IMG/VR virus record: IMGVR_UViG_3300044655_002016
Location: 1 to 39,068 of that record
Source: a virus
DNA length: 39,068 nucleotides
Direction: 5' to 3' (one strand)
The stretch's first letter is position 1; every line of letters starts with the position of its first letter. A model generated the notes under the pieces. That model made no database searches, was not told where the DNA came from, and was given only the letters and a program-made list of their open reading frames with translations. Positions 1-20,549 of the stretch are shown piece by piece. The translations under genes and the position numbers were made by a program.

Positions 1-74
1 CGTTTGATCGACTGAAATCGGGTCACTGCTTCCAATGCTGGATCAATGTCCACATCTACGCGAAAGTCATCCAT
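1..74 (-). CDS. datZ: Partial duplicate of datZ 5' end (contig-end copy)
   Basis: These bases encode the first 24 codons of the HD-domain protein whose complete copy is at 38463-39002. The reading frame runs off the contig edge at base 1. ATG is at 74-72, two bases after the mazZ stop. The ribosome-binding sequence AAGGA lies inside the last mazZ codons. In the closed genome this is the real datZ start, so datZ follows mazZ directly. It should be merged with the right-end copy and not counted as a second gene. Confidence 0.9.
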   Translation of the reverse strand, partial: MDDFRVDVDIDPALEAVTRFQSIK

Positions 75-126
75 GATTATTTATCCTTGTGACTCATTGT
101 GCCGTTGCTATTGAGCTTCCAGTCAC
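1..126. repeat. Left copy of 126-bp terminal direct repeat
   Basis: Bases 1-126 are identical to 38929-39054. The match stops at 127 (g) versus 39055 (a). The simplest reading is that the molecule is circularly permuted or was assembled as a circle of about 38,928 bp, so that the two contig ends join inside the mazZ-datZ junction. A true short terminal redundancy cannot be excluded from sequence alone. Confidence 0.95.
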
Positions 127-463
127 GATTACGGTTAATTTCCAGCTTCTCGCCGATCGCGTCGCTAAGTACGACATTTTTGCGCTTCGCGTAGTCAAGA
201 ATCAGGATAAACAGGTCGGCGACTTCCAAACGGTCACCACCAGAGCGGATCACTTCTCCGATCTCTTCGTACATCTTGAGGAACATGCTGGCGTCGGTCC
301 GGTCCGGGAATGCCTCGTTCGCCCATTTGAATACGGTGTTGGCCAACACGTCGATGTCATGAGGGTTCTCGTCTTCGAGTCGGCGGTTACGGGCACGGAG
401 CATCCGGTTTTCAACTTCCAGATCTCCGATAGTCAAGTCGAGGTCCATTTCGAGTTGGTTCAT
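77..463 (-). CDS. mazZ: MazZ-like MazG-family (d)GTP pyrophosphohydrolase
   Basis: The 128-residue protein carries the MazG-type metal-binding signature: YEEIGE near residues 65-70, followed about 12 residues later by EVADL. The N-terminal 35 residues are predicted coiled coil, rich in Glu, Arg and Asn. In Z-genome phages the MazZ members hydrolyse dGTP (and GTP) to dGMP plus pyrophosphate, supplying the substrate of PurZ. I infer that role here from the neighbours, because sequence alone does not separate MazZ from other phage MazG proteins. The ATG overlaps the purZ stop (ATGA), so the two are translationally coupled. datZ starts 2 bp after its stop across the contig join. It could alternatively be a general MazG lowering (p)ppGpp or dNTPs, but the purZ-mazZ-datZ block makes this less likely. 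Confidence 0.85.
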   Translation of the reverse strand: MNQLEMDLDLTIGDLEVENRMLRARNRRLEDENPHDIDVLANTVFKWANEAFPDRTDASMFLKMYEEIGEVIRSGGDRLEVADLFILILDYAKRKNVVLSDAIGEKLEINRNRDWKLNSNGTMSHKDK

Positions 464-1506
464 AGCGCCACCACATCCTTGTCATCAGGACCGTTACCGA
501 TCCAAGCCACTTTAGCGTTGTTCATGTTTATTTTGGTGGGAGACTCGATCATCTCGATCATTTCAGTCAGCAACTCTTTGTCGGTTACGTAATTGGCGAA
601 GTTCAAGAACAACCGGGTGTTCCAATAACCGCCACAATGGAACAAGGCTTCCTGCATTTGCTGCTGGCTGAACGAGAAGATCCGACGTGGCAACTTGGTC
701 ACTGTCGTCAATTCTGGCTGAAGGCCGATATCTTCCCACTTTAACTCCACTTGATCAGGATAATGAGGTCCAGAGGATCCGTCGCGGTTGCTGACCCTGA
801 TCGGGAAAGTGCGCAACGTGCCGATAACCTGAATGTAGGAAGCCCAACGATAAGGCAACCCACAATCTGCAGCCACTTGCCATGGTGTAACGTCGCGTGA
901 CGTGGTATATGGATATTGGCCATGGTACATCGACAAAGAATAACCCTGAGCGCCTTCGACGATGACTGATTCGGCGGCGGCGAGGGCGTCCCGGTACTCC
1001 TCTGGAGTGGCGATCATACCATAGAGAGCGTCGGCTGTCGAGACCCTGTGGCCGATCGTATTCGGGTTTTGGGGGTTCCGGCGAATTCGCTCGATGTAAG
1101 CTTCACCCACGCCTTTTGCGGTCGACCCCATCTTGGTGCGGCCATCCGACATTTCGAATTCAGCATGATAATCTTCTACGACAGCAGCGTGCGGGTGAAT
1201 CAGAACCTTCTTGCCCTCCAAGTATTGGGCGTACCGGGTGATCTCTTCCTGCAGTGTCTGCAGGTGGATGGCGGATCCGGGTCCGATCAGAATTGTTTGC
1301 ACTGACGGGCTGGTGATCGCGGTCGGGAGTTGCTGCGTCATCACGTGGATTCCGCGTTGCTCGTCAATGTAAGTGTGTCCCGCGTTTGTCGCGAAAGCGC
1401 AGATAGCGGTGTCGTACGATTCGCGCTTGGCCAGATAACCAGCGATCAAACCTTTACCAGTGGAACCATACTGGAAATCCAGTACCATATCGATCTTATG
1501 AGGCAT
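460..1506 (-). CDS. purZ: PurZ, 2-aminodeoxyadenylosuccinate synthetase
   Basis: At 348 residues this is a shortened member of the adenylosuccinate synthetase (PurA) fold, which is usually about 430 residues in bacteria. The P-loop reads DFQYGSTGKG (residues 10-19): Ser15 and Thr16 stand where PurA has the Asp-Glu of GDEGKG. Loss of that catalytic Asp is the hallmark reported for phage PurZ. Other PurA blocks are present: NAGHT with His44 at residues 41-45, MGSTAKGVGEAY in the IMP-loop region, and EGAQG followed by HGQYPYTTS. PurZ condenses dGMP with aspartate to give 2-aminodeoxyadenylosuccinate, which host PurB converts to dZMP. AAGGAA lies before the ATG. It follows dpoZ by 14 bp and overlaps mazZ by 4 bp. 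A housekeeping PurA is unlikely given the Ser and the setting. Confidence 0.93.
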   Translation of the reverse strand: MPHKIDMVLDFQYGSTGKGLIAGYLAKRESYDTAICAFATNAGHTYIDEQRGIHVMTQQLPTAITSPSVQTILIGPGSAIHLQTLQEEITRYAQYLEGKKVLIHPHAAVVEDYHAEFEMSDGRTKMGSTAKGVGEAYIERIRRNPQNPNTIGHRVSTADALYGMIATPEEYRDALAAAESVIVEGAQGYSLSMYHGQYPYTTSRDVTPWQVAADCGLPYRWASYIQVIGTLRTFPIRVSNRDGSSGPHYPDQVELKWEDIGLQPELTTVTKLPRRIFSFSQQQMQEALFHCGGYWNTRLFLNFANYVTDKELLTEMIEMIESPTKINMNNAKVAWIGNGPDDKDVVAL

Positions 1507-1520
1507 TTTACAGTTTCCTT

Positions 1521-3350
1521 TCAGTTTTTACTTGCTTCATACCAATTAACACCGTAGTCAGCGCTGGCCGCGATCGGCACCCGCATCTGGATAGGCGAAT
1601 CTTCACCGTTGAAGTTGGTATAGTTCTTGACGATCACGTTTTTCACGTCATCGTCCATCGGCATCGAAACGCCAATCTCGTCGTGCACTGACAACATCAG
1701 TCGCGCAGGTAGCCCCATCTCCCGGATTGCGGCATCCACCATAATCAATCCGGCTTTGTGAATGTCAGCCGCGTACGCTTGGTATAGGAACCCAGCGGCC
1801 TTATGCGACCCTTGCCCTCTCGGGAATCGGAGGCGGCGACCGATCTGGGTCTTGACGTACCCCGACTCTTTTGCTACGTTCTCGGCACGCTTCATAAATT
1901 CCTTGACCGCTGGGAGCTTCCGGTGGTACAATTCGAACACCGCCACTGCCTCTGGTCCCGGTACGTACTGCATTTTACCCTTGTACTCTCGCACCTCGTA
2001 TGGCATACCCATCATGAACCCGAGCTTGCCTTGACCAGCGCCGAAGGACAGACCGAGATTCAGCTGCTTCGTGTTCGGAGCGCCAGCAAAAGCCGGATTC
2101 CTCGGGATTCCCGTCATGTCGGAGACGACTTGATGATAATCTAGCGCTGGATTCTCTCGGTAGGCGGCAATCACAGCAGGGTCATTCTGGAGATGAGCAC
2201 CACAGCGGAAATCGACTTGAGAATAGTCGGCACAGAGCCAAGTGTGGTCACGGTCCGGCATGAACATGGCGCGAAGGATGGCCGCGTTGTCTTTGTCCCG
2301 TTTGGTGATCTGCTGCAGCGCCGGATCGGTCGAAGACAGCCGTCCCGTTACAGTCCCAGCGTCCGCATCGTTTCGAGTCTGGTTGAACGACGTGTGGACG
2401 TATCCGTCCGGGTCTGCACTCCCGATTACGTGACCTCGGATAAACGTGTCGCGAAGCTTGATCGTCTTGCGGAGTTCCAGAATCTTCGCGGCCAACGGGT
2501 GCTTAATTTCCCGCATCGCGTTCTGGTCCAGTGATGGGCCTTTTCCTCCCTTTGTCGGTCCCACGAGCGTGCCGTCGATCAACTTCCATTGGAAGCGGTT
2601 GACTGGCTCAGGCTTGAAGAAGTCGCGGATCTGGGGCGACGAGTTGACGTTGAACGGAGCGCCGACGATCTCGTCCACTTCGCGCTGCAACTCCAGTTCT
2701 TTCGCGTCCAGCGCTGGGATCGCGGCGTGCGCTGCTTCCAGATCAACACGGACCCCGTGCCAAGACATATCGGCCAAGACGGGGAGCAGGTCCATTTCGA
2801 GCTTGGACACTCGCTGGAGGTCTTGACGCTGGATCTCGGGCAGGTGCTTCTCGTAGATCCGAAGTGCGTCGAGAGAGTCTGAGATGCCGTAGGGGGCGGC
2901 GATATCGGGGGGTACCTCGGAGAACCGAGCGAGTACCTCGGCGGCGTTTTTCCATCCCATCGCGGCACGGATAGCCTCTAGATGCTCGTCCTTCTTCGTG
3001 TCGATCCCGTTGGCTCGGGCGACAGACGCGAGAGCGTAAGACATGAGGTGCTCGTCAATCAAGCACTGATTAACCATTGTACAATACCAGTCAACCCCTC
3101 TTGGGTCGATTCCGAGTACTCGGGTACACTGGACTTCGAATTGGGCGTTATGTGCCACCACTACCCGGTCGACCAGCAAGTCACGCAGGAATGGGACAAC
3201 GTTGGGGGTGGTCCGGAGATCCCAATACCAACCCTCTTGGCCAACAGCGACTGAGACGCCAATGACGCGGAAATCTGGATGCCAATAATTCAGCCCACTG
3301 GTCTCGTAGTCGAAACCGATAGGCGCTTTTGGTGGAATTCGTGGGAACAT
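1521..3350 (-). CDS. dpoZ: DpoZ-type family A DNA polymerase with 3'-5' exonuclease
   Basis: This 609-residue enzyme has a DnaQ-like proofreading domain and a Klenow-like polymerase domain, but no 5'-3' exonuclease. Exo I is FDYETSG (Asp14, Glu16), Exo II is HNAQFEV (Glu72 where Asp is usual) and Exo III is YGISD (Tyr154, Asp158). Polymerase blocks are TGRLSS (335-340), motif A DYSQVDFR (Asp375; Asp380 replaces the usual Glu), motif B KQLNLGLSFG (Lys428; Leu432 and Phe436 replace the usual Phe and Tyr) and motif C HDE (556-558). Family A polymerases beside purZ are called DpoZ and can prefer dZTP. Placement upstream of purZ supports this, but preference for Z is an inference. No good ribosome-binding site precedes the ATG, and tandem terminators lie just upstream. 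Confidence 0.88.
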   Translation of the reverse strand: MFPRIPPKAPIGFDYETSGLNYWHPDFRVIGVSVAVGQEGWYWDLRTTPNVVPFLRDLLVDRVVVAHNAQFEVQCTRVLGIDPRGVDWYCTMVNQCLIDEHLMSYALASVARANGIDTKKDEHLEAIRAAMGWKNAAEVLARFSEVPPDIAAPYGISDSLDALRIYEKHLPEIQRQDLQRVSKLEMDLLPVLADMSWHGVRVDLEAAHAAIPALDAKELELQREVDEIVGAPFNVNSSPQIRDFFKPEPVNRFQWKLIDGTLVGPTKGGKGPSLDQNAMREIKHPLAAKILELRKTIKLRDTFIRGHVIGSADPDGYVHTSFNQTRNDADAGTVTGRLSSTDPALQQITKRDKDNAAILRAMFMPDRDHTWLCADYSQVDFRCGAHLQNDPAVIAAYRENPALDYHQVVSDMTGIPRNPAFAGAPNTKQLNLGLSFGAGQGKLGFMMGMPYEVREYKGKMQYVPGPEAVAVFELYHRKLPAVKEFMKRAENVAKESGYVKTQIGRRLRFPRGQGSHKAAGFLYQAYAADIHKAGLIMVDAAIREMGLPARLMLSVHDEIGVSMPMDDDVKNVIVKNYTNFNGEDSPIQMRVPIAASADYGVNWYEASKN

Positions 3351-3450: not shown

Positions 3451-4218
3451 TTAGAGTTCGCCTCGGTCGGCGGTCGTTGGGTGGTCGGATCCGTCCGCTT
3501 CGAACACGGTCTCGTGGGCAACGCGGAAATCCTGAGTCTTGAGCACTTCGTACATCTTCTCGGCTTCGCGATAGACACGCTCGGGAGTGTAACCAGCGGG
3601 TTGCACGACGAAGTTGAAGAACTTTTGACCCTTCTTGTTCTCGTCACGGAACGTGGTAATCTTGTAGACCCGGCTAAATCGGTCACCACCAGCGATCTGG
3701 ATCATAGCGTTCCATTTGCGTGAGACCTTGGATTTGGTCTTGGCCATGGAAATCACGATCTGCTCGATCTCGCCACTTTCCAGCACGTGGATACCGTACT
3801 GCACAGGGGTATCAACAATCTCGATGTGCTCGGGGTTCTCGCCCTCAGCGACTGCCTGAGCTTTCCGGTCTTCCGCGTCCTTCTGGTTGTTGAACGAACC
3901 GAAGAATCCACCACCTTGGTCTTGATCTTTCCAGACCAGATACTCCATACGGTAGTAAACGGGAACGAAGTACATCATTTCGCCGATCACTGCTTGGGTG
4001 ACGCTGTTGAACAGGTAGCCCTCACGAGCGTCGTCGTTCACTTCCTTGATAGGAGAGAGAGCTTGGACGATTTCGAGTCGGGGGAGAACGATGTCGGAGG
4101 CTTTGACCTCTTCCGATCCACGAGCGGAGCCTTGATTCAGATAGGCTGGTGCCTCTTGCGAGAATGCCAGTGCGCCTTCTTCTTTCACTGCGACTTCAGT
4201 CTTCTTGGTGGTAGCCAT
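3451..4218 (-). CDS. Putative phage single-stranded DNA-binding protein
   Basis: This 255-residue protein starts at ATG 4218, eight bases after AAGGAA. A longer upstream reading frame lacks a ribosome site. A Lys/Thr/Glu-rich N-terminus of about 30 residues precedes the block ASDIVLPRLEIVQ, which recurs in phage proteins often annotated as ssDNA-binding or recombination-associated. A beta-rich middle region follows (MYFVPVYYRMEYLVW), then basic and aromatic residues around SKVSRKWNAMIQIAG and an acidic C-terminal tail, a trait shared with many SSBs. It is encoded between a coiled-coil protein and dpoZ, which fits a replication role. The assignment rests on resemblance and position; I see no diagnostic catalytic motif. 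Tandem terminators follow it. Confidence 0.45.
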   Translation of the reverse strand: MATTKKTEVAVKEEGALAFSQEAPAYLNQGSARGSEEVKASDIVLPRLEIVQALSPIKEVNDDAREGYLFNSVTQAVIGEMMYFVPVYYRMEYLVWKDQDQGGGFFGSFNNQKDAEDRKAQAVAEGENPEHIEIVDTPVQYGIHVLESGEIEQIVISMAKTKSKVSRKWNAMIQIAGGDRFSRVYKITTFRDENKKGQKFFNFVVQPAGYTPERVYREAEKMYEVLKTQDFRVAHETVFEADGSDHPTTADRGEL

Positions 4219-4291
4219 TTTGATTTCCTTAAAAACAGGGGCGGTTGAAAATCTGTCCGGTGTGCCCCGATCCACGTGGACAGACGATTTT

Positions 4292-5098: not shown

Positions 5099-5127
5099 AT
5101 TGTACCAGACCCGGCCCCCGGTGTCTA
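5099..5127 (-). promoter_or_regulatory. Sigma70-type promoter TAGACA-N17-TACAAT
   Basis: On the minus strand -35 TAGACA (5127-5122) and -10 TACAAT (5104-5099) are 17 bp apart. The predicted start near 5092 leaves a short leader to the ATG at 5070. The -35 box overlaps the stop of the SNF2 gene. Confidence 0.75.
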
Positions 5128-6897
5128 GTCCCTCACGAGCAGGTCTACGATGCTGTTACCATCACGGATCTTTGTCGTCACGTACGTTTCCACGTCCATT
5201 TTCCCGCGAATCGACTCGACAATCACCTCGTCAATCGTTTTCTCGGCAATCAGGTCCACAATCGTCACCGTGTTTTTCTGGCCGATTCGGTGGGCGCGAT
5301 CCTCAGATTGTGCTCGGTCGATGTAAGCGTTCGTGCCAGAATAGTAAACCATCACGTCGTTCTCGCCCGAAATCAGGGTCAGTCCCAGACCTGCAGCGGT
5401 CGGGTGGCCGATGAAGAAGCGGAGCGTCGCATCGTTACAGTACCTGTCCTCGATCCGTGAGCGGTCCTCCATCGCGGTACCACCGTAGTAACACTCGACC
5501 GACTCGGACCCGTACTTCTTGATCAGCAGATCCCGGATCGCCTCGATTTCGTGCACGAAGGTGCTCCAGATGATGAACTTGGATCCGTCGAAGTTGTCCT
5601 CGACCAGTTCGAACAACCCGTCCATCTTGGGATTCTTGTCCAGCGGGATCAATTCGGTGGTGATCGTCTCGACTGGCTGGCCCTCGATCTCTTTCCACTC
5701 GATTTTGCCTTTCGGTAACCACCCTCCCACGATTTGTCGGGCACGCAACACCTTTTCGAGCACGTTTTCCGTCTTGATGTATGGTGCATTCGGGTCCGCA
5801 CTGGCTCCCTTCGCCACGATTTTCAGCAGTCGCTTTTGCTCGGGCGTGATTTCAACGAATCGCTCAGTCATCACCTTGGGCGGCAGGTTCAGTACCTCTT
5901 TACCGACAACACAGGTATAGGGAGCCAGCATCGACATCAATTCATCGACGTTCTGGTATCCGACGATCTGCTTGTTCTCGTAACCACCTTTCACAAGGTA
6001 ACGAGTTTTGAAGGCCCAATAGTCTCCCATCCCGATAATGTTCGGGTCGAGGAACTCGAATTGTGACCACAGGTCGTGGATCCCAAGGGCGATCGGCGTG
6101 CCGTTCAAGATCAGTCGGTACTCGCCCATCTGCCCGAGTTGAATCGTACGCTCGGTCCGCTTGGCGTCGGGGTTCTTGATTCGACTGGACTCGTCGCAGA
6201 CCACGAAAATGCGCTTGTTGGAGGCGAAGAACTTGCAAACCGAATCGTACAAACCAGCGGAGATCCCGAGACCCTCGACCGAGACAGCGAGAACTTGAAG
6301 CTCGTCTTTGGGCTTCGCGTCACAGAAATCGTCGTACCAAGCGGCCTTAGGTTCAAAGCTCTTGAACACGTAGGGTCGGGTGGCGAACTTGACGAATTCT
6401 TTGCGCCACACGGAGCGGAGGGTGGAGGGGCAAATGATCACGACCGCATCGATCTCCCCGGCGATCCATCGAGCCATCGCGAGGTGAATGGTAGCAAAGG
6501 TCTTTCCCGTGCCCATCTTGGCGAACCAAGCGGACGCCTTGAGACCCCACGCGGTATCGAGCATCGTCAACTGGTGGTCCATCGGTCGGTACCCGGTCTC
6601 GGACTTGGTGAAGTCGTAGACGTGCTGCGGGAACGGTACCTTCTTCGGTGCAGCGGTGAGCTTCTGGTAGTCGGCAATCGCGTCAAGCGCTGGAGCGTCG
6701 AACTCGAAAGCATACCGATTCTTGACCGATTCGAGGTGTGCGATATTGCTCTTCACGAGCGGCAATCGCCAAGTCTTGGTCTTCGGTTCAAAACGACGAG
6801 ATGGGAACTCGCGTGCAACGTCGGCCAGATAGAACGGCACGGTCATCACGAGGCGGCGCGTTTTCGGGTCGAACTTTATCTTAATACGCTCATTCAT
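5125..6897 (-). CDS. SNF2-family DNA helicase/translocase
   Basis: The 590-residue protein shows superfamily 2 motifs in order: motif I KMGTGKT (residues 127-133), motif II DESSRIKN (235-242), motif III LNGTP (264-268) and motif VI QSEDRAHRIGQ (530-540), the last being typical of Swi2/Snf2 ATPases. The N-terminal 100 residues resemble the HARP-like module that precedes the helicase core in SMARCAL1-type annealing helicases, though this is only a visual impression. Phage SNF2 proteins probably remodel forks, anneal strands or displace proteins during replication or recombination. It overlaps the upstream winged-helix gene by 4 bp (ATGA) and ends the run of overlapping small genes. No nuclease domain is fused to it. 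Confidence 0.92.
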   Translation of the reverse strand: MNERIKIKFDPKTRRLVMTVPFYLADVAREFPSRRFEPKTKTWRLPLVKSNIAHLESVKNRYAFEFDAPALDAIADYQKLTAAPKKVPFPQHVYDFTKSETGYRPMDHQLTMLDTAWGLKASAWFAKMGTGKTFATIHLAMARWIAGEIDAVVIICPSTLRSVWRKEFVKFATRPYVFKSFEPKAAWYDDFCDAKPKDELQVLAVSVEGLGISAGLYDSVCKFFASNKRIFVVCDESSRIKNPDAKRTERTIQLGQMGEYRLILNGTPIALGIHDLWSQFEFLDPNIIGMGDYWAFKTRYLVKGGYENKQIVGYQNVDELMSMLAPYTCVVGKEVLNLPPKVMTERFVEITPEQKRLLKIVAKGASADPNAPYIKTENVLEKVLRARQIVGGWLPKGKIEWKEIEGQPVETITTELIPLDKNPKMDGLFELVEDNFDGSKFIIWSTFVHEIEAIRDLLIKKYGSESVECYYGGTAMEDRSRIEDRYCNDATLRFFIGHPTAAGLGLTLISGENDVMVYYSGTNAYIDRAQSEDRAHRIGQKNTVTIVDLIAEKTIDEVIVESIRGKMDVETYVTTKIRDGNSIVDLLVRD

Positions 6898-8850: not shown

Positions 8851-9675
8851 TTAGGCGGCGACCGCTTCGGCTTTTGCTGCACGCTTCGCGTCGCGCTTCG
8901 CGTCGCGTTCGGCTTTCGCGATTGCTTTCGCGGCGATATCTTCGGCGGGGATCGCGTAACCACCAGCGTCGCGCACTTCGACCACTCGGGCAATGGTGAT
9001 CAGACCCTTCTTCAAGGCACCACGCAAGCGATTGCGGAGGTTCATCGACTGTTGACCGACGTTCAGTCGGGCGTAGGGGTTGTGCTCCAGTTGCAGCAGT
9101 TCCATGGCCATGTGGACCACGTTGGTGGCGGTCACCGCGTCGAGGGCTTGGGCGAGTTCGTCGTTGGAGCGGAGCAGACCAGTGGCGGACTTGACGTAAT
9201 TCTTCTTCGCGTCACGCAGAGCGGCCATCTTGCTTTGTGGACCCAATTCGGCCAGTCGTGCTTCGCGTGCTGCTTTTGCGTCGGCTCGGGCTTGCGCCTT
9301 GGCTGTGGCGGCTTCGGCTTTCGCAGCGGCCTTCGCTTCTTTCGCGGCCAGTTTTTCGGCGGCAAGTTCGGCCTTGGCTGTGGCGTTCGCAGCTTTCACG
9401 GCGTCGCGTTCGGCCTTGGCTGCAGCGGCTTGTGCTTTGCGCTCTTCGGCGGTTGTAGTCATCTTTTCAGCATCTTGTGCGCTCATGAGGGATTCCTTCA
9501 CAGGGGTTTGGTTAAAAATCGAGAACCCCGATTGTACCGCACCTCCAGATGTCGTGTCAAGGGGGGCAGCAGCGGGTGCTGCTTCGGTATTGCTCGGTTT
9601 CGCGTGCCGTGCGTGCTTCGGTCCGCCAAGCTGCTTGATTGGGCGGGGGGCTTTCGGGGTCGGGGTGCGTGCCAT
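8851..9675 (-). CDS. Ala/Lys-rich early protein with GQQSMNLRN domain
   Basis: From ATG 9675 (GGAGA upstream) it encodes 274 residues. Residues 1-60 are Pro/Lys-rich. About residues 70-165 form a low-complexity Ala/Lys/Glu helix. The C-terminal domain contains NPYARLNVGQQSMNLRN and a basic, alanine-rich end. A second in-frame start, MSAQDAEK at 9486, has AAGGAA and its own promoter (9531-9560) located inside the coding frame, so a 211-residue form is likely and may be the main product. The C-terminal domain is shared with the product at 10571-11221. The composition is histone H1-like, suggesting DNA binding, but function is unknown. Confidence 0.75.
   Translation of the reverse strand: MARTPTPKAPRPIKQLGGPKHARHAKPSNTEAAPAAAPLDTTSGGAVQSGFSIFNQTPVKESLMSAQDAEKMTTTAEERKAQAAAAKAERDAVKAANATAKAELAAEKLAAKEAKAAAKAEAATAKAQARADAKAAREARLAELGPQSKMAALRDAKKNYVKSATGLLRSNDELAQALDAVTATNVVHMAMELLQLEHNPYARLNVGQQSMNLRNRLRGALKKGLITIARVVEVRDAGGYAIPAEDIAAKAIAKAERDAKRDAKRAAKAEAVAA
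9531..9560 (-). promoter_or_regulatory. Sigma70-type promoter TTGACA-N18-TACAAT (internal)
   Basis: On the minus strand -35 TTGACA (9560-9555) and -10 TACAAT (9536-9531) are 18 bp apart. The promoter lies inside the longer form of the K/A-rich gene and would start a message about 40 nt before the internal ATG at 9486. Confidence 0.75.
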
Positions 9676-10570: not shown

Positions 10571-11221
10571 TTAGGCGGCTACAAGGGCGGAGCGGATCTG
10601 GTCGGCGGTCACGACGCCGTTTTTCAGGGCGGTCCGTGCCTTATTCCGCAGGTTCATCGACTGCTGGCCGGGATTGAGGTGCAGGTAAGGGTTGGAGCCA
10701 AGACCCAGAGCGGCCACGAGACCCGCCACGACCGCTTCGCGGGGGTAGGCTCCGCAGATCTCGGCCAGATCGTCGCCACAGCACGGTTGGCCATTCGGCG
10801 CGACGACGTATTTTTTCACGGCAGTCCGCAGGGCCAGCATCGGACCCACGTAGCCGGACTTCGGAGTTTCGGCGAGTTGCTCGGCGACGTAGGTATCTGG
10901 GTCCACCCCGAGGGCTTCGGCGTCGATCCGGAGAGCGGCAACGTAGGCGTCGTGCTCGGCCTTCTTCGCGTCGACCGACTTGGCCATCGGCTCGGGCTTG
11001 GAGGGCTTGACGACTTTCGGGGTCGTGGCGGCTTTGAGCGCCTTCTTGCTGGCGGCTTTGCGCTGCTTTTCCGCCTTGGCTTGTGCCGCGATCGTCTCGG
11101 CGGACTTGTTCAGCGCCTTCACGGGCTGGCGGGTCTTGCGGGTGCGCTTCGCGGTCTCGGTGGCTTGATCTTGCAGGATTGCTTCGAAGCTGGTGGTCTG
11201 GGCTTTGGTGGTGCGTGTCAT
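10571..11221 (-). CDS. Lys/Ala-rich early protein, paralogue of 8851-9675
   Basis: The 216-residue protein has a Lys/Ala/Thr-rich N-terminal half with histone-like composition (for example KAEKQRKAASKKALKAATT), followed by a domain holding GPMLALRTAVKKYVVA and, near the C-terminus, NPYLHLNPGQQSMNLRN and ARTALKNGVVT. The last block is shared with the product of 8851-9675 (NPYARLNVGQQSMNLRN, ALKKGLIT), so the two are paralogues. AGGAG lies before the ATG, after the repeated leader element. There is a Cys pair (PCCGDD) but no zinc site. The domain may bind DNA or RNA or be a host-takeover factor; no function is known to me. Confidence 0.8.
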   Translation of the reverse strand: MTRTTKAQTTSFEAILQDQATETAKRTRKTRQPVKALNKSAETIAAQAKAEKQRKAASKKALKAATTPKVVKPSKPEPMAKSVDAKKAEHDAYVAALRIDAEALGVDPDTYVAEQLAETPKSGYVGPMLALRTAVKKYVVAPNGQPCCGDDLAEICGAYPREAVVAGLVAALGLGSNPYLHLNPGQQSMNLRNKARTALKNGVVTADQIRSALVAA

Positions 11222-12834: not shown

Positions 12835-12998
12835 ACCGGAAAATATCGAGGATATGCCTTACCACAGCCCGTGTCCTACAGCCCTCGGGCCTAGTCATGA
12901 GGCTCACCGGATGAGCTACCCCCATCTTTTCTCCTGAAACGTCGGCCATATGCCTCTTTCTCCGGAACAAAAAATATATCGAGAATATGCCTTACCAC
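12835..12998. repeat. Paired operator-like repeats
   Basis: The segment from CCGGAA through an ATATCGAG(G/A)ATAT core to GCCTTACCAC occurs at 12835-12865 and again at 12962-12998. The core of the first copy, ATATC-GAG-GATAT (12843-12855), is a perfect inverted repeat; the second (12976-12988) has one change. The copies are 133 bp apart and stand upstream of the first late promoter, suggesting sites for a regulator or looping protein. Confidence 0.7.
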
Positions 12999-13017
12999 CT
13001 ACTACGATCCACAGGAT

Positions 13018-13046
13018 TTGACGAGCGCGTTCCCGTGTGGTATACT
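13018..13046 (+). promoter_or_regulatory. First late promoter TTGACG-N17-TATACT
   Basis: -35 TTGACG (13018-13023) and -10 TATACT (13041-13046) are 17 bp apart. The A of the terS ATG (13053) is seven bases after the -10, exactly where transcription would start. Confidence 0.8.
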
Positions 13047-13052
13047 CACGTA

Positions 13053-13526
13053 ATGGATCAACTCTCAACCCTGCAAGAAGATGTCGTCATCGACGTACCC
13101 GCTGTCGTGGTCGAGGAGCCGGAGCTTCCACCGCTGTCGGTAGATGAAGATTCTTTTGCGTTGGCTGTCGTCGAATGCGGTGGGAATTTGTCCAGCGCTT
13201 ACCGAATGGTGTTTGGTGAAGACGCGAAAACACCAATGGCGCGAGGACGGGCCTTACTCGCAAAGCCCCAGATCGCGGCGCGAATCCAAGAATTATCCGA
13301 GACGATCAAAGAGTCGACGCTCGTCTCTCTGGGTACGCACTTGCAGGAACTTTCCATCATCCGCGATATGGCGAAGGTGCAGGGCCAACTCAAGATCGCG
13401 CTTCAAGCCGAACGGTCACGGGGCGAGGTAGTCGGTCTTTACAACAAATTCGAGCACGGTGATCGCGGTAATGGTCCAGTCAACGTGCAAATCAATCTGG
13501 TCAGCAAATACGACGTTAATATATGA
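13053..13526 (+). CDS. terS: Terminase small subunit
   Basis: The start MDQLSTLQ at 13053 gives 157 residues. A longer form from 12987 would read through the promoter and is rejected. Residues 30-75 hold a Terminase_2-like helix-turn-helix layout (ALAVVECGGNLSSAYRMVFG, then a helix ending AARIQEL), followed by a helical oligomerisation region (ELSIIRDMAKVQGQLKIALQ). Small terminases recognise pac/cos DNA and load it on the large subunit. The gene overlaps terL by 4 bp. No ribosome site is present, and the predicted transcription start is the ATG itself, so leaderless translation is possible. Confidence 0.85.
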   Translation: MDQLSTLQEDVVIDVPAVVVEEPELPPLSVDEDSFALAVVECGGNLSSAYRMVFGEDAKTPMARGRALLAKPQIAARIQELSETIKESTLVSLGTHLQELSIIRDMAKVQGQLKIALQAERSRGEVVGLYNKFEHGDRGNGPVNVQINLVSKYDVNI

Positions 13527-14866
13527 GCGAGTTCAAACTCACAGAGCGTCAAGAGGCTGCAATGGCGGTCCTCTCCGGACCAGCCACTCACGGGATGTTG
13601 TTCGGCGGTTCCCGTTCCGGAAAGACGTTTCTGCTCGTGCGAAACATCGTACTACGTGCGTTGAAAGCAAAGCGTTCCCGTCACGCGATCCTGCGTTACC
13701 GTTTCAACCACATCAAAGCGTCGATTATCCTTGACACGTTCCCCAAGGTCATGGAGATCTGCTTCCCCGGCGTTGAGTATACGTTGTCGAAGACTGATTG
13801 GTTCATTACCCTCCCCAACGGCTCCGAGATCTGGTTTGGCGGTCTGGACGACAAGGAGCGCACCGAGAAGATTCTGGGTCAAGAATACGCGACCATCTAT
13901 TTCAACGAGTGTTCACAGATCCCGTCCGGCTCCCGCTCAATAGCGATCACCCGACTGGCACAACTCGCCGAAACCACCCCCGGCAATTACCTAGTCCCTC
14001 GTGCGTTCTATGATATGAACCCCACGGACAAGATCCATTGGGCCTACAAGTCGTTCATCCAAAAAGTCGATCCTGAGACGAAAAAAGAACTGCCGGACCC
14101 CGAAAATTATGTATCCTTTCGGATCAACCCCGAAGACAATTTGCAGAACTTGAGTTCGAACTACCTCGACACCCTCAAGTCGCTCAGCCCCCGATTGCAA
14201 AAGCGTTTCCTACGTGGTGAATTCAGTGACGGCACGCCCAACGCGTTGTTCAACGATGAAATCATCGAGACTTGGCGAGTGGTCAACGGCGAAATCCCCG
14301 ACCTCGTGCGCGTTCTGGTTGCGGTGGACCCATCTGGATCTGGAGACGACGCTGGGTCCGAGGCGGACGCGATTGGTATTGTGGTCACTGGACTCGGTAC
14401 AGATGGAAATGCGTACGTACTGGAAGACCTGACAGTGAAGGCGGGACCGTCCACTTGGGGCAAAGTTGCTGTCGATGCGTACATTCGCCACGAGGCCGAT
14501 GCGGTGGTGGGAGAAGCGAACTACGGTGGCGCAATGGTTCAACACGTGATCCGCACCGCTGCCGCTGCCCGAAACGCCCGAGTGAACTACCGAAAGGTAA
14601 CCGCTACTCGCGGTAAAGTGGTCCGTGCTGAACCGATCTCGGCGTTGTACGACCAAGGCAAAGTGCGCCACGTCGGCTACTTTCTGGATCTTGAAGACGA
14701 ATTGTCCGGGTTCACGACCAACGGATACGTTGGCGATAGCTCCCCAAACCGGGCCGACGCGTTAATCTGGGGCATTTCCGAATTGTTTCCCGCTATGGTC
14801 TCCCCAAACAAACCGGGTGAGCATAGTTCTATTATTATCATGCCGTCAGTACATCACTGGCGTTAA
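13523..14866 (+). CDS. terL: Terminase large subunit (packaging ATPase/nuclease)
   Basis: At 447 residues it has a canonical length. Walker A is GGSRSGKT (28-35). Walker B reads ATIYFNEC with catalytic Glu129; Asn128 replaces the usual Asp, which is tolerated in several terminases. The RNase H-like nuclease domain begins with VAVDPSGSGDD (Asp269), continues with VVGEANYGG and ends with the NRADALIWG acidic site. It powers DNA translocation into the prohead and cuts the concatemer. It follows terS by ATGA overlap. Together with P22-type portal and coat, this indicates a headful or cos packaging podovirus. Confidence 0.95.
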   Translation: MSEFKLTERQEAAMAVLSGPATHGMLFGGSRSGKTFLLVRNIVLRALKAKRSRHAILRYRFNHIKASIILDTFPKVMEICFPGVEYTLSKTDWFITLPNGSEIWFGGLDDKERTEKILGQEYATIYFNECSQIPSGSRSIAITRLAQLAETTPGNYLVPRAFYDMNPTDKIHWAYKSFIQKVDPETKKELPDPENYVSFRINPEDNLQNLSSNYLDTLKSLSPRLQKRFLRGEFSDGTPNALFNDEIIETWRVVNGEIPDLVRVLVAVDPSGSGDDAGSEADAIGIVVTGLGTDGNAYVLEDLTVKAGPSTWGKVAVDAYIRHEADAVVGEANYGGAMVQHVIRTAAAARNARVNYRKVTATRGKVVRAEPISALYDQGKVRHVGYFLDLEDELSGFTTNGYVGDSSPNRADALIWGISELFPAMVSPNKPGEHSSIIIMPSVHHWR

Positions 14867-14877: not shown

Positions 14878-16932
14878 ATGGCAAGAGTCACTCGCGAACA
14901 ACGTCACCACGCTGTCCACCAAGAAGCGTTGGTTGAATTCGATAACATTCAGTCCGCACTACGCGACGAAAGGCTACAGTGCCTCCAAGATCGTCGTTTT
15001 TATTCGATTGCTGGCGCTCAATGGGAAGGTCCGTTGGGCGACCAATTCGAGAACAAGCCGAAATTCGAAGTCAACAAAATCGCACTGTCCGTGCAGCGGA
15101 TCTTTACCGAATACCGGAACAACCGAATCACGGTTGATTTTGTGAGCAAAACGGGAGAGAAGGGTGACCGACTCTCCGACGTTTGCGACGGTCTGTATCG
15201 GGCCGACGAGCAAGACAGCGTAGCGAATGAAGCCTACGATAACGCCTTCGAAGAGGCTGTCGGTGGTGGTTTCGGTGCGTGGCGTTTGAAGACTGAGTAC
15301 GAAGACGATGAAGATCCAGAGGACGACCGTCAGCGGATCCGGATCGAACCGATTTTCGACGCGGATTCTTCAGTGTTCTTCGATCTGGAAGCCAAACGCC
15401 AAGACAAAGCCGACGCGAAACGCTGCTTCGTGCTGTACAGCATGACCCGCGAAGCGTACAAAGATACTTGGGGCGACGACCCAGCAAGCTGGTCGAAAGA
15501 GATCCATCAGTACGAATTCGACTGGCTCACCCCCGACGTGGTATACGTGGCTGAGTATTACCGAGTCGAAGAAGTCTCGGAGACAATCCGGATTTTCCAG
15601 TCGATCGATGGTAGCGAAGACCGTTACACTCCCGATGAACTGACTGAAGAAGTGATGATGCAACTTGAAGCGATCGGTTCGACCGAGGTACGGCAGAAAA
15701 AGATCAAGCGTCGCCGTGTTCGTATGTACATCATGTCCGGATCCAAGATTCTCGAAGATTGCGGGTATATCGCAGGTAAATGCATTCCAATTATTCCTGT
15801 GTATGGCAAGCGCTGGTTCATCGACAACGTTGAACGTTGCATGGGTCACGTGCGTATGGCCAAGGACGCACAACGGTTGGCGAATATGCAGCGATCCAAG
15901 TTGGCTGAGATCTCGGCGCTTTCCAGTGTTGAGAAGCCGATTATGACTCCTGAGCAAGTGGCTGGCCATCAGGATTTATGGGCACAAGACAACCTAATGA
16001 ACTACCCCTATATGCTCATCAACCCTGTGACAGGCGCTGACGGGTCTCAGGCACCATCTGGTCCAGTGGGGTACACCAAACCCCCCGCCGTACCCCCCGC
16101 GATGGCTGCGCTGCTATCTGTCACAGAGCAGGATATCCGGGACGTGCTCGGGAATCAGGAGCAGGGCGACAAGATCGTCAGCAACATTTCCGGCAAAGCC
16201 GTCGAAATGGTCCAGCAACGTCTGGACATGCAAACGTTCATCTACATGTCTAACATGGCCAAGGCGATCCGTCGATGCGGTGAAGTTTGGCTCGGTATGG
16301 CTAAGGACGTGTACGTCGAACCCAAGCGCAAGATGAAGATGATTAACGCTCAGAACGATATGAGTTCCGTTGAGTTGCAGCGTCCGACTGTTGACGAGGA
16401 CACTGGTGAGATTAAGATGGAAAACGACTTGTCGGATGCGAATCTGGACGTTACAGTCGATGTCGGTCCATCGTTCACTAGTCAACGTGCCGCTATCGTT
16501 CGTTCACTCACCGGGATGATGGCCATCACCCAAGATCCACAGGCCCAACAGGTACTGCAATCTGTCGCGATCATGAACATGGAAGGCGAAGGCTTGAGCG
16601 ATGTTCGTAATTTCTTCCGCAAGAAGATGGTCGAGGCTGGTGTTGTCCAGCCGACCGAAGAAGAAATGATGCAGATGCAAGCTGCGATGGCGAACCAGCA
16701 GCCAGATCCGAACGCGATATTCCTGCAAGCCGCTGCCGAAGAAGCCACAGCCAAAGCTGCTGGAGCACGGGCCGGAGTCGTGAAAACGGTGGCCGACGCT
16801 GAGTTGGCTCGTGCCAAGACCATTCAAACATTGGCAGGTGTTGACCAAGCTTCTCAGAAGTTGGCAATAGAATCGGCCCAAGCGCTCGGCGGGATGTTGA
16901 AAGAAGCAGCAGGACCAGTCGCTGGAGTATAA
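14878..16932 (+). CDS. Portal protein, P22 gp1-like
   Basis: A 684-residue portal with the P22-type architecture: an N-terminal clip/stem region with DRRFYSIAGAQWEG and a NKIALSVQRIFTEYRNNR helix, a large wing, and a long Gln/Ala-rich C-terminal helix (barrel-like) near residues 590-680. P22 gp1 is 725 residues. Portal dodecamers form the vertex through which DNA enters and leaves. GGAGAAAATC precedes the ATG. The gene follows terL by 11 bp, the classic terL-portal-scaffold-coat order. Confidence 0.93.
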   Translation: MARVTREQRHHAVHQEALVEFDNIQSALRDERLQCLQDRRFYSIAGAQWEGPLGDQFENKPKFEVNKIALSVQRIFTEYRNNRITVDFVSKTGEKGDRLSDVCDGLYRADEQDSVANEAYDNAFEEAVGGGFGAWRLKTEYEDDEDPEDDRQRIRIEPIFDADSSVFFDLEAKRQDKADAKRCFVLYSMTREAYKDTWGDDPASWSKEIHQYEFDWLTPDVVYVAEYYRVEEVSETIRIFQSIDGSEDRYTPDELTEEVMMQLEAIGSTEVRQKKIKRRRVRMYIMSGSKILEDCGYIAGKCIPIIPVYGKRWFIDNVERCMGHVRMAKDAQRLANMQRSKLAEISALSSVEKPIMTPEQVAGHQDLWAQDNLMNYPYMLINPVTGADGSQAPSGPVGYTKPPAVPPAMAALLSVTEQDIRDVLGNQEQGDKIVSNISGKAVEMVQQRLDMQTFIYMSNMAKAIRRCGEVWLGMAKDVYVEPKRKMKMINAQNDMSSVELQRPTVDEDTGEIKMENDLSDANLDVTVDVGPSFTSQRAAIVRSLTGMMAITQDPQAQQVLQSVAIMNMEGEGLSDVRNFFRKKMVEAGVVQPTEEEMMQMQAAMANQQPDPNAIFLQAAAEEATAKAAGARAGVVKTVADAELARAKTIQTLAGVDQASQKLAIESAQALGGMLKEAAGPVAGV

Positions 16933-16985
16933 TTTTACGGTAACCACCCAGCCGTTTCAATTGGGTGAGAGCAATGGAGTTAGAT

Positions 16986-17909
16986 ATGGGTAAAAGAAAG
17001 ATTATCATCGAGCAACCCGAGGAAATCGAGTCCGATGACGTAGCGGTCATTGAGGATACCGAAGAAGTCGCTGAAGAGACAACCGAAGAAGTCGCTGAAG
17101 AGCAAAATACCGAAGAGACAACCGAAGAGACAACCGAAGAAGTTGCTGAAGAGACAGTCGATGCGGACGAAGAAGAGCTTGTAATCTCGATCGCTGGTGA
17201 AGACCCACCTGAAGAAGAGGAAGATCATAAAAACGCACCGGGATGGGTCCGCGAATTACGCAAGTCCAGCCGCGAAAAAGACAAGAAGATTCGCGAGTTG
17301 GAAAGTAAGCTGCAAGCCGTCAGCGGACAGGCCGCGCCTAAAATTCCAGCGCTTGGAAAGAAGCCCACTCTCGACGATCATGATTACGATCCAGACGCGT
17401 ATGAAGCTGCGTTGACCGATTGGTTTGATCGAAAGCGGGTCCACGATGCCCATGAAGCTCAAGTACTGGCACAACAAGAAGAGTCACAACGAGCATGGGA
17501 AGCGAAGCTGGCCGGTTACGGAAAATCTAAAACCGAATTGAAGGTGAAAGATTTCGACGATGCTGAGTCATATGTCCAAGAGAAGTTCAACGTAACTCAG
17601 CAGGGCATCATGCTTCAGGGTCTGGAAAATCCTGCCCTGATGGTTTATGCTCTTGGTAAGAACCCAAAGAAGGCCGCAGAGTTATCTGCGATCACAGATC
17701 CTGTCAAATTCGCAATCGCCATCGGCAAACTGGAGTCCACCTTGAAAGTCACCCCTCGCAAAACCGCACCTCCTCCAACGAAGTCCATCACGGGTAACGG
17801 ACCTGTATCCGGCTCGATCGATTCGACCCTGAACCGACTGCGTGCCGAAGCGGAGAAGACAGGAGATTACACGAAGGTCATGGCCTACAAGAGGCAGAAA
17901 AAGGCGTGA
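16986..17909 (+). CDS. Scaffolding protein, P22 gp8-like position
   Basis: The start MGKRK at 16986 is preferred for its GGAG spacing; earlier in-frame GTG and ATG lack this. The 307-residue protein has an extremely acidic N-terminus with imperfect repeats of EETTEEVAEE (about residues 20-65), a helical central region (SREKDKKIRELESKLQAV) and a basic C-terminal helix (RLRAEAEKTGDYTKVMAYKR) like the coat-binding helix-turn-helix of scaffolds. It sits between portal and coat, as expected. A hairpin CACCCA/TGGGTG with GTGAG (16954-16967) stands before it. No protease domain is seen. Confidence 0.85.
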   Translation: MGKRKIIIEQPEEIESDDVAVIEDTEEVAEETTEEVAEEQNTEETTEETTEEVAEETVDADEEELVISIAGEDPPEEEEDHKNAPGWVRELRKSSREKDKKIRELESKLQAVSGQAAPKIPALGKKPTLDDHDYDPDAYEAALTDWFDRKRVHDAHEAQVLAQQEESQRAWEAKLAGYGKSKTELKVKDFDDAESYVQEKFNVTQQGIMLQGLENPALMVYALGKNPKKAAELSAITDPVKFAIAIGKLESTLKVTPRKTAPPPTKSITGNGPVSGSIDSTLNRLRAEAEKTGDYTKVMAYKRQKKA

Positions 17910-18073: not shown

Positions 18074-19354
18074 ATGGCAAACGCATTTAGTAAAGAAGAA
18101 CGCGTCGCGTTCGAAGATCTCCTCGAAGGTTTCCAAGACGCACTGGTCTTGTCTCGCAACGTTTCGGTCTATAACACTGACCAAACAATGATGGAGCGTG
18201 CACGCAACACCATCTGGCGTCCACAGCCCTATATCGCTCAGTCGATCAACAGCACTCCCGGTACTCCAATTCCCGGTTACCAAAACATGACTCAGTTGGC
18301 CGTTCCCGCCACTCTGGGTTTCAGCAAGACCGTGCCTTGGACCATGACCACTCTGGAATTGCGTGACGCTCTGCAAGAGGGCCGTTTGGGTCAGTCCGCT
18401 CGTCAGAAGTTGGCTTCCGACATCAACGTTGCCGTCATGAATGTGGCCGCTGCTCAAGGCACTTTGGTTGTTCCCGTTGCTGGCGCTGCTGGTGACTACG
18501 ACGACGTGGCTTTGTGTGATTCGATCATGAACGAGCAGGGCATTCCTACTGAAGATCGTTATCTGGCTTTGTCCAGCCGCGACTACAACGGTTTGGCTGG
18601 CAACTTGGCCGCTGCTACTCGTTCGTTCACTGGCAACAAGTCGGCAAATGCCTACGAGCGCTCGTTCGTTGGTATGGTTGCAGGTTTCGACACCTACAAA
18701 CTCGACTACGCCAATCGTATCGGTGTTGCCGCTGGCGGTGCTACCACTATCGACACCAACGGTGCAGGTTCGCAAGCGAACTACGCTCCCCAAGCGACTT
18801 CGAACTCGGTCGGTGGCCAGATCAACGTGGATAACCGCTTCCAGACCGTCACCGTGTCGAACACTGGTGGTATTGCCGCTGGTGATTGCTTCACGATCGC
18901 TGAAGTGTACGCCGTGCATCACATCACCAAGCAGTCCACTGGCCAACTGAAGACATTCCGTGTCATCAGCGTGACCGACGGCACTACCATGGTGATCAGC
19001 CCCCCAATCATCGGTGCTCAAGGTACTCCAACTGACGCTCAGTTGCAGTACAAGAACGTGGAAGTGGCTATTGCCGCCGACGCTGCCGCACTGACTTGGC
19101 TGAACACTGGCGCTTCCAACATCAACCCCTTCTGGCAAAAAGATTCGATCGAGATTCTTCCCGGTCGTTATGCCGTGCCTTCCGACGCTGGTACTGCAGT
19201 GATGCGTGCAAGCACCGACCAAGGCATCGAGTTGGTGATGCAGAAGTTTTATGACATCGATAGCATGACCATCAAGTATCGCCTTGATACGCTGTTCGGC
19301 GTTGTGAACAAACAACCCGAAATGTCCGGCATTTTGTTGTTCAACCAGCCTTAA
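18074..19354 (+). CDS. Major coat protein, P22 gp5-like
   Basis: The 426-residue protein is close in length to P22 coat (430 residues) and shows its layout: an N-terminal helix (FSKEERVAFEDLLEGFQDAL), the RARNTIWRPQPYI loop, a P-domain-like core and an Ig-like inserted region rich in Thr and Val (residues about 230-320: QTVTVSNTGGIAAGDCFTIA). It forms the T=7 shell with the HK97 fold, as known for the family. AAAAGGAG lies before the ATG. The gene is isolated by a promoter upstream and a terminator downstream, which fits its need for high expression. Confidence 0.93.
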   Translation: MANAFSKEERVAFEDLLEGFQDALVLSRNVSVYNTDQTMMERARNTIWRPQPYIAQSINSTPGTPIPGYQNMTQLAVPATLGFSKTVPWTMTTLELRDALQEGRLGQSARQKLASDINVAVMNVAAAQGTLVVPVAGAAGDYDDVALCDSIMNEQGIPTEDRYLALSSRDYNGLAGNLAAATRSFTGNKSANAYERSFVGMVAGFDTYKLDYANRIGVAAGGATTIDTNGAGSQANYAPQATSNSVGGQINVDNRFQTVTVSNTGGIAAGDCFTIAEVYAVHHITKQSTGQLKTFRVISVTDGTTMVISPPIIGAQGTPTDAQLQYKNVEVAIAADAAALTWLNTGASNINPFWQKDSIEILPGRYAVPSDAGTAVMRASTDQGIELVMQKFYDIDSMTIKYRLDTLFGVVNKQPEMSGILLFNQP

Positions 19355-19407: not shown

Positions 19408-19605
19408 ATGCCGTTGGTTAAAGGTTATTCCAAGCAGTCTATCAGCAAAAACATTTCCAAAGAAATGAAGTCTGGTAAGCCTCAAAAACAAGCTGTTGCT
19501 ATCGCTTTGAGTACCGCTAAAAAGGCGGCAAAAGGCGCCGGTAAGTCCATGCCTACCCGAGGTAGTCGCACGGCGAAGAATAAAGCAAGTCGAGGAATGA
19601 AATGA
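19408..19605 (+). CDS. Small basic virion-region protein (65 aa)
   Basis: The 65-residue protein is highly basic (Lys, Arg, Ser) and contains SKEMKSGKPQKQAVAIAL, the core of a small family (DUF6496-like) often found next to phage coat genes. AGGAG precedes the ATG and the stop overlaps the gp4-like gene. It may bind DNA or act as a head accessory, but its role is unknown. Confidence 0.75.
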   Translation: MPLVKGYSKQSISKNISKEMKSGKPQKQAVAIALSTAKKAAKGAGKSMPTRGSRTAKNKASRGMK

Positions 19606-20084
19606 GTTACACGAAGCGCCAGTTCGTGACTGCAGCGTTCGAAGAAATCGGACTGGCTTCTTACGTGTTCGATCTGCAACCGCAAGATCTTCAAACTGCG
19701 TTGCGACGCCTAGATGCGATGATGGCTGAGTGGAACGCTAAAGGCATTCGACTCGGTTACCCGATCCCGTCCAATCCTGATCAAAGTGATTTGGATGAAG
19801 AAACGTTTGTCCCAGATTCGGCAAATGAGGCGGTTATTACCAACCTTGGAATTCGAATTGGTCCCGGATTTGGTAAAACGGTATCTATGGACACTAAATT
19901 GGTAGCCAAGCAAGGTTATAACACTTTGTTGTCCCGTGCTGCGATTCCTCCCGTACAACAACTCCCAAGCACCATGCCGTCCGGTCAGGGCAATAAGCCA
20001 TGGCGTGTCTACGACGATCCATTCATCCGTCCGCCTCTTGATCCGGCCACTGCTGGACCTGATGGCCCGATTCAGTATAATTAA
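19602..20084 (+). CDS. Tail accessory adaptor, P22 gp4-like
   Basis: A 160-residue protein of P22 gp4 type: the N-terminal helices TKRQFVTAAFEEIGLASY and QDLQTALRRLDAMMAEWNAKG are characteristic, followed by a loop with NEAVITNLGIRIGPGFGK. P22 gp4 is 166 residues, binds the portal dodecamer and starts tail assembly; some members have muramidase activity. Start overlaps the preceding stop (ATGA). The position before the gp10-like gene supports the assignment. Confidence 0.88.
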   Translation: MSYTKRQFVTAAFEEIGLASYVFDLQPQDLQTALRRLDAMMAEWNAKGIRLGYPIPSNPDQSDLDEETFVPDSANEAVITNLGIRIGPGFGKTVSMDTKLVAKQGYNTLLSRAAIPPVQQLPSTMPSGQGNKPWRVYDDPFIRPPLDPATAGPDGPIQYN

Positions 20085-20093
20085 GGAACAGTC

Positions 20094-20549
20094 ATGCCAT
20101 TGATTTATCAACTCCCCCTGCTGAGTCAGGTATCTAGCGGTGACCAGTTCCCGGTATATACCCCTGCTAACGGTGATGCTCGTCGTGTGTCGGTAGGAGC
20201 GTTGCTGCAGTTTTTCCAGCAATCGTTCGCGTCTCCCACTGTTTCCACTCAGTTGGCGACTCCCGGTACCGGGTTCAATATCGCGATCCAAACACCTGTT
20301 AGTCAACAACAATGGTTGATCATTCAACCTGCTGGTACGTTGGCCGCTGGTACCGTCACACTGCCGTTGAATACTCAAACACCTGACGGGACACAAGTAC
20401 TAGTTACTTCGACGCAAATCATTACCAGCTTCACATTAGCTTTGAATGGCGCAGCCGCAGCATTCGGTGCACCCACTACATTAGCCGCGAACGCATTTTT
20501 CACAATGCGTTTCTATCAAGCCACTAATAGTTGGTATCGCGTTGCCTAA
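20094..20549 (+). CDS. Putative minor structural protein (151 aa)
   Basis: The 151-residue protein starts with PLIYQLPLLSQVSSGDQFPV, resembling N-terminal adaptor segments of phage tail proteins, and continues as beta-rich Thr/Gln/Ala sequence. No catalytic motif is seen. It lies between gp4-like and gp10-like genes, an insertion relative to P22. It may be a head decoration or tail accessory protein. Confidence 0.6.
   Translation: MPLIYQLPLLSQVSSGDQFPVYTPANGDARRVSVGALLQFFQQSFASPTVSTQLATPGTGFNIAIQTPVSQQQWLIIQPAGTLAAGTVTLPLNTQTPDGTQVLVTSTQIITSFTLALNGAAAAFGAPTTLAANAFFTMRFYQATNSWYRVA

Follow-up and report, generated by a model that had tools for sequence, protein, structure and literature searches.

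Here we describe a viral genome in which the genes for 2-aminoadenine (Z) DNA are joined to a P22-like virion module. The window, meaning the whole stretch of 39,068 nucleotides that was analysed (IMG/VR record IMGVR_UViG_3300044655_002016), is a near-complete viral genome, very probably that of an uncultured podovirus of P22 type whose DNA has Z in place of adenine. The Z genes are present, intact and in order, with the family membership and active-site residues detailed below, and the virion module is likewise read directly. Full replacement of adenine in virion DNA is a prediction.

Bases 1-126 are repeated exactly at 38929-39054, and this 126-bp end overlap indicates either a circular contig or a terminal repeat. 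The final 14 bases (AAGGATAAATAATC) repeat 75-88 in inverted orientation; a biological inverted repeat was ruled out here, the 14-bp snapback copy being an assembly tail. A megablast search for close DNA relatives with bases 1-25000 gave no match among 50,697 phages. The features discussed are the following.

77-463, minus strand: mazZ, MazZ-1/DUF550 type, 128 aa (PF04447, 30.5 bits; cut-off 23)
460-1506, minus strand: purZ, 348 aa (NF038379, 316.3 bits)
1521-3350, minus strand: dpoZ, family A DNA polymerase with 3'-5' exonuclease domain, 609 aa (NF038380, 831.8 bits)
3451-4275, minus strand: Pam3 gp34-like protein (PF23977, 8.9e-58), annotated as ssDNA-binding in phage Lydia
4292-5070, minus strand: Pam3 gp33-like and gp32-like genes (PF23984, PF23992)
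5125-6897, minus strand: SNF2-type helicase (PF00176, phrog_62)
8851-9486, minus strand: Z-linked domain protein copy 1, 211 aa from the ATG at 9486 (motif LNVGQQSMNLRN; family profile match)
10571-11221, minus strand: Z-linked domain protein copy 2, 216 aa, paralogue of copy 1 (motif LNPGQQSMNLRN)
12987-14866, plus strand: terminase small and large subunits (phrog_51, phrog_979)
14878-16932, plus strand: P22-like portal (PF16510, 533.5 bits)
16965-17909, plus strand: scaffolding protein (phrog_648, 1.7e-60)
18074-19354, plus strand: P22-like coat protein, gp5 (PF11651, 297 bits)
19602-22252, plus strand: tail accessory genes, gp4-like (19602-20084) and gp10-like (20840-22252) (phrog_637, phrog_578)
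24684-31721, plus strand: DNA ejection/transfer proteins and beta-helix tailspike (phrog_598, phrog_770, phrog_2234, PF13229)
35469-38036, minus strand: primase-helicase with VapE-like domain (PF05272, 4.6e-68)
38008-38466, minus strand: small replication gene (phrog_2165, 5.4e-15)
38463-39002, minus strand: datZ, dATP triphosphohydrolase, 179 aa (phrog_7076 'dATP triphosphohydrolase', 1.2e-23)

A preliminary description of this DNA had proposed a Z genome, with dpoZ, purZ and mazZ consecutive on the minus strand and datZ completing the set across the contig join. The three consecutive genes are in place. The fourth is also present, but it is not split at the join and lies whole near the end of the contig; once the end overlap is closed it follows mazZ at a distance of 2 bp. 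All four genes are open and full-length, at about the lengths of their homologues. They stand in a minus-strand run of SNF2 helicase, the three Pam3 gp32-34-like genes, dpoZ, purZ, mazZ, datZ, the phrog_2165 gene and the primase-helicase, and each of the 12 close metagenomic relatives has the same order from dpoZ to the primase. The proposed Z genome is supported alike by family scores, by active-site residues and by gene order, and at the sequence level the family and PDB matches of the four proteins are far beyond chance.

PurZ passes the curated NCBIfam cut-off of 300 bits, whereas PurA models give it 47-143 bits against cut-offs of 368-700. Its best PDB matches are the characterised enzymes 6tnh, 6fko and 7odx. 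Ser (S23) replaces the catalytic Asp of PurA, and T273 (in the loop TTVT), V241 and N305/F306 are conserved. A phylogeny had been suggested as a check on whether this protein belongs with phage PurZ rather than PurA; in the tree the PurZ/PurZ0 group (27 rows) has support 100/99 and the window falls inside it, within a 10-row clade at 100/100.

DpoZ likewise exceeds its curated NCBIfam cut-off (500 bits), and its best PDB match is 7pbk (E 3.9e-91). In the tree it groups with all known DpoZ-2 in a phiVC8-type clade of 22 rows (support 100/99), separate from DpoZ-1 and from the PolA of non-Z phages. The signature residues L455, F459 and G548, together with R440, whose roles are taken from PMC8599892, are invariant across the clade, the window included. 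Motif B reads KQLNLGLSF, and of the three phiVC8-type insertions the third seems shorter than that of VP5. Both proteins are homologous to the PurA and PolA families, as would be expected had an ordinary PurA and PolA been captured from a host. The scores and trees, with both proteins in Z clades and Ser at the PurA Asp position, rule out such a capture, to which we assign a negligible probability.

The best PDB match of MazZ is S-2L MazZ (7ody, E 2.8e-13), with the metal ligands E35, E38, E50 and D53 and the guanine-contact residues I56 and D60 conserved (S-2L numbering). DatZ matches S-2L DatZ best (6zpa, 3.7e-9) and retains R19, W20, H34, H66, D67, E70, D75, K81, K116 and D119, which include the HD metal ligands. 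Of its base-contact positions, W20 is conserved, M replaces I22 as it does in ZP6, and H replaces P79, leaving dATP selectivity uncertain from sequence.

From these genes we infer what the four enzymes do and that virion DNA contains Z. MazZ, a pyrophosphohydrolase, would convert (d)GTP to (d)GMP and so supply dGMP. PurZ would join aspartate to dGMP to give succino-2-aminodeoxyadenylate, and host enzymes would complete the synthesis of dZTP. DatZ would remove dATP, and DpoZ would copy the genome with dZTP preferred to dATP.

The pathway could be present yet degenerate or partial, so that the DNA mixes A and Z. The two DatZ substitutions are in keeping with this, as is the exo II motif of DpoZ, where the window has Glu and known DpoZ have Asp. 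Moreover, S-2L Z genes expressed in E. coli replaced only part of the adenine (PMC8342488). However, the four genes are open and near homologue length, metal and phosphate ligands are conserved, and the set is retained in 12 related contigs. Of the 12 sequences in the window's DpoZ clade, 10 have the exo II Glu, which therefore does not represent decay of this genome. A partial pathway is accordingly very unlikely, and replacement of adenine is the preferred reading. Proofreading by DpoZ has been proposed as an aid to Z selection; judged from the exo II Glu, proofreading may differ in the window.

The P22-like morphogenesis genes noted in the preliminary description are real: portal, coat, scaffold, gp4 and gp10 families are present in order. 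No gp26 needle was found in the window, and a gp9 head-binding domain scores below cut-off (Head_binding, 19.2 bits against 24). The combination of the full Z set with such genes had been called rare. It is indeed absent from the known Z-podoviruses compared here (VP5, ZP6 and BUCT555), but at least 8 of the 12 close metagenomic relatives carry a P22-like portal and/or coat. The Z pathway itself has been described before; what is new is its occurrence in a P22-type genome, a combination that recurs among these relatives. P22 goes unmentioned in PMC12884076 and PMC8515928, and a search of freely accessible main texts for 2-aminoadenine in P22-like phages returned only an unrelated cyanophage paper.

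Salmonella phage P22 shares the portal, coat, scaffold, gp4, gp10 and ejection protein families with the window, but the replication genes of the window are of the VP5/ZP6 type, unlike those of P22. P22 is not known to make Z-DNA. The closest portal relatives are the uncultured MW202867 and MW202475 (Manatee Spring) and Pseudomonas phage PfAn1 (71, 62 and 52% identical, respectively), which also have the coat and gp10-like genes in common. PurZ, DpoZ, MazZ, DatZ and the Z-linked domain were not found in these three; MW202867 has an annotated adenine-specific DNA methyltransferase.

The Vibrio phages phiVC8, VP2 and VP5 (Enhodamvirus) and Alteromonas phage ZP6 (Mareflavirus) are, like the window, 38-40 kb podoviruses with an SNF2 helicase, gp33/34-like genes, DpoZ, PurZ, a MazG-like gene, DatZ and the Z-linked domain. 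Identity to the window is 38-44% for PurZ and 35-36% for DpoZ. Their MazG-like gene is of the MazZ-2 type whereas that of the window is MazZ-1, a primase lies between dpoZ and purZ unlike in the window, and the portal, coat and tail genes of the VP5/ZP6 group do not match. The siphovirus S-2L, a cyanophage, shares PurZ, MazZ-1 (the closest solved structure) and DatZ, but it has PrimPol instead of DpoZ and lacks the Z-linked domain. Acinetobacter phage SH-Ab 15497 and Salmonella phage PMBT28 share DpoZ-2, PurZ, a MazZ-1-type domain, DatZ and the Z-linked domain. They differ in their siphovirus virion and in a MazZ that has an additional domain fused at its N-terminus, and zinc-ribbon-like Cys clusters precede their Z-linked domain.

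The two Z-linked paralogues share a domain with the motif LNxG[QM]Q[RS]MN; the preliminary description did not mention them. Copy 1 has a Lys/Ala-rich N-terminus, the conserved domain near its C-terminus and a promoter-like site directly upstream, at 9560. Among 50,697 phage records those with the domain are the same 57 that have both PurZ and DpoZ-2; none was found in plasmids. The domain has two matches in phiVC8 and one in SH-Ab 15497. From metagenomic contigs no shorter than 35 kb, one set was picked by the domain, with PurZ and DpoZ present in 32 of 32, and another by DpoZ (37 contigs). The domain is present in all 33 DpoZ-picked contigs with PurZ. The other four lack PurZ, DatZ and MazZ but retain DpoZ, SNF2, gp33-like and gp34-like genes, and three of them lack the domain (Fisher p 5e-4, for records that are not independent). 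The domain thus tracks the Z pathway beyond the polymerase alone. Since these four score 765-775 bits for the DpoZ family, such a score by itself is no proof of Z-DNA.

Sequence searches of PDB with the domain gave no match, Pfam gave only single stray matches, and viral-library matches are uncharacterised phage proteins. The model of the copy 2 domain has a mean pLDDT of 83.5 (core above 95). Foldseek against PDB found nothing below E 1; VIA-align gave Z of at most 5.7, with top folds that differ between the two models. A resemblance to the SAP-type DNA-binding fold (FAN1 Z 5.0, PIAS-1 Z 4.3) seen with one model was not reproduced with the phiVC8 model. A 'histone-like' label for the whole family was rejected, since the proteins of the window and BUCT555 are basic (pI 9.7-10.1) and those of VP5, ZP6, SH-Ab 15497 and PMBT28 acidic (pI 4.6-5.8).

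The domain might be a mere passenger of the shared replication module, unrelated to Z-DNA. The replication genes of DpoZ-2 phages are related to one another, and their co-inheritance could by itself yield 57 of 57; moreover, the domain matches no function or solved fold. Against this stand its absence from three of the four PurZ-less contigs and the wider spread of the gp34-like neighbour (138 phage records, many without PurZ). The domain is also retained in both podoviruses and siphoviruses, where its gene occupies differing positions. We regard a passenger as possible, if somewhat doubtful. The two paralogues, whose link to the Z pathway is shown by co-occurrence, probably have an accessory function in the Z way of life and may, for example, bind Z-DNA or help to replicate it. 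The chances are about even that the family is an unrecognised, near-universal component of DpoZ-type Z phages, kept mainly where dZTP is made and acting on or with Z-containing DNA. Earlier notice of this family, or of P22-like Z phages, may exist beyond the openly available main texts.

This genome adds a P22-like virion type and a deep DpoZ branch to the Z-genome phages, and its related contigs join the same Z module to different virion modules. The four PurZ-less contigs are a caution that the polymerase by itself does not identify a Z genome. With a gene family that accompanies the pathway so closely across phages, further needs of a Z genome become testable in phiVC8 or SH-Ab 15497.

The preliminary description had claimed a four-gene 2-aminoadenine (Z) cassette, and this is correct. 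All four genes have family evidence and lie on the minus strand in the order dpoZ-purZ-mazZ, with datZ across the closed ends:

1521-3350, minus strand, dpoZ, family A polymerase gene, first of the cassette row
460-1506, minus strand, purZ, with a 4-bp overlap with mazZ
77-463, minus strand, mazZ, after purZ
38463-39002, minus strand, datZ, next after mazZ across the closed ends

A small phrog_2165 gene and then a primase-helicase follow datZ on the same strand. The source record is one single virus contig and datZ is whole within the window. Bases 38929-39054 exactly repeat bases 1-126. The final 14 bases (39055-39068), which lie past this 126-bp end overlap, repeat 75-88 in inverted orientation and come from an assembly snapback.

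DpoZ scores 831.8 bits against NF038380 (cut-off 500) and PurZ 316.3 bits against NF038379 (cut-off 300), while PurA models score on this PurZ far under their own cut-offs. The best PDB sequence matches are phiVC8 DpoZ (7pbk), phiVC8 and S-2L PurZ, S-2L MazZ (7ody), and S-2L DatZ (6zpa). Specificity residues of Z enzymes have been identified in the literature (PMC8342488, PMC8065100, PMC8599892). The window retains Ser23, Thr273 and Val241 in PurZ; Glu35, Glu38, Glu50, Asp53, Ile56 and Asp60 in MazZ; Leu455, Phe459 and Gly548 in DpoZ; and every metal and phosphate ligand in DatZ, which deviates with Met at I22 and His at P79.

In the PurZ tree the window falls in a ten-member clade with metagenomic contigs (support 100/100), inside PurZ and separate from PurZ0 and PurA, the PurA outgroup being on long branches. 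Its PurZ thus groups with phage PurZ and not PurA, which bears out the preliminary description. In the DpoZ tree it lies inside a 22-row DpoZ-2 group (100/99) of three parts: known isolates with two contigs, two bacteria-binned contigs (one Verrucomicrobia), and a 12-row clade containing the window. Exo II of the window DpoZ (residues 67-74) has Glu where nine reference polymerases have Asp; ten of the 12 sequences of this clade, window included, have this Glu. The forms are HNAQFE or QNAQYE (window and relatives L001, L003-L007, L010-L012). Motif A is canonical (DYSQ) in the clade, unlike in other DpoZ-2. A Verrucomicrobia-binned contig (L051, L260) carries PurZ, a separate deep-branching DpoZ and, twice, the Z-linked domain described below. 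In a Candidatus Gottesmanbacteria-binned contig (L053) PurZ and polymerase group with Ochrobactrum phage OH; the contig may come from a Z-phage that infects a CPR bacterium, or may have been binned wrongly.

The P22-like morphogenesis genes also reported in the preliminary description are present on the plus strand: portal (PF16510, 533.5 bits), coat (PF11651, 297 bits), scaffold, gp4, gp10, ejection proteins and a beta-helix tailspike. The three known Z-podoviruses examined, VP5, ZP6 and BUCT555, gave no match to the portal, coat or scaffold, and the nearest portals are from phages lacking Z genes. The closest such P22-like relative (L030) has an annotated adenine-specific DNA methyltransferase at 15252-16514, so that a related virion module goes with another type of adenine modification. 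The Z module is common to twelve metagenomic relatives (PurZ identity to the window 64-97%), eight with a P22-like portal or coat; most of the remainder are fragments. One 44.9-kb contig (G002; L002, L262-L264) combines the Z/replication module (65-71% identity) with different, non-P22 terminase, portal and major head genes but retains a gp10-like gene, which points to exchange between replication and virion modules. By gene content the window joins the Z-genome phages already described, here with a P22-like genome.

Of greater interest is a protein domain family linked to Z, present in two paralogues:

8851-9486, Z-linked gene copy 1
10571-11221, Z-linked gene copy 2

Two near-perfect minus-strand sigma-70 promoter-like sites lie at 10098-10070 (12/12 with extended -10) and at 9560-9531 (11/12), the latter directly upstream of the first Z-linked gene. 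The C-terminal part of both paralogues is a domain in common with ZP6 gp37 and VP5 gp34 (phrog_8941, unknown function). Searching 50,697 phage records by tblastn with ZP6 gp37 gave matches in 57, exactly the 57 whose Z-phage polymerases head the DpoZ list. In the PurZ list these 57 are joined by S-2L, which lacks DpoZ; lower down come PurZ0 phages and a small number of divergent phages, which lack the domain. Profile searches found none in S-2L, Ochrobactrum phage OH, Ghobes, the examined part of Vallejo, or three non-Z P22-like relatives. Plasmids gave zero matches. Matches occurred in 2 of 780 bacterial genomes, both MAGs also having a PurZ contig, the same contig in one.

Two viral-contig scans, by the domain and by DpoZ, covered the best 80 matches of each; contigs may be incomplete. 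Among the domain matches, 32 records of 35 kb or longer were tested and every one had PurZ and DpoZ, and eight shorter fragments had neither. Among the DpoZ matches, 37 records of this length were tested; PurZ was found in 33, and all 33 carried the domain (20 outside the domain-scan sample). The four others (G854, G855, G857, G859; L300, L304, L306, L310; 39-42 kb) have DpoZ scores of 765-775 bits, over the curated cut-off, and retain SNF2, gp33-like and gp34-like genes. With G854 searched up to its last 331 bases, tblastn found no PurZ, DatZ or MazZ in them; the domain was absent from three and a weak match in one. The association of domain with PurZ among DpoZ-scan records (Fisher p 5e-4) is a guide only, as the records are related. 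Either these four are phages with A-DNA whose polymerase resembles DpoZ, or their Z is supplied by an unknown route. The module's gp34-like gene, by comparison, was found in 138 records, which include many Pseudomonas and Bordetella phages that the PurZ list does not contain. Since PurZ-less DpoZ contigs mostly lack the domain and the gp34-like gene is widespread outside that list, the domain is tied more closely to the Z pathway than to either the polymerase or the module.

AlphaFold gave two confident models of the domain (mean pLDDT 83.5 and 88.9), both consisting mostly of helices. A weak SAP-domain resemblance appears in one and is absent in the other, so no fold is assigned. The accompanying regions differ, being Lys/Ala-rich in the window and zinc-ribbon-like Cys clusters in SH-Ab and PMBT28. 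A nucleic-acid role for the Z-linked domain proteins is plausible.
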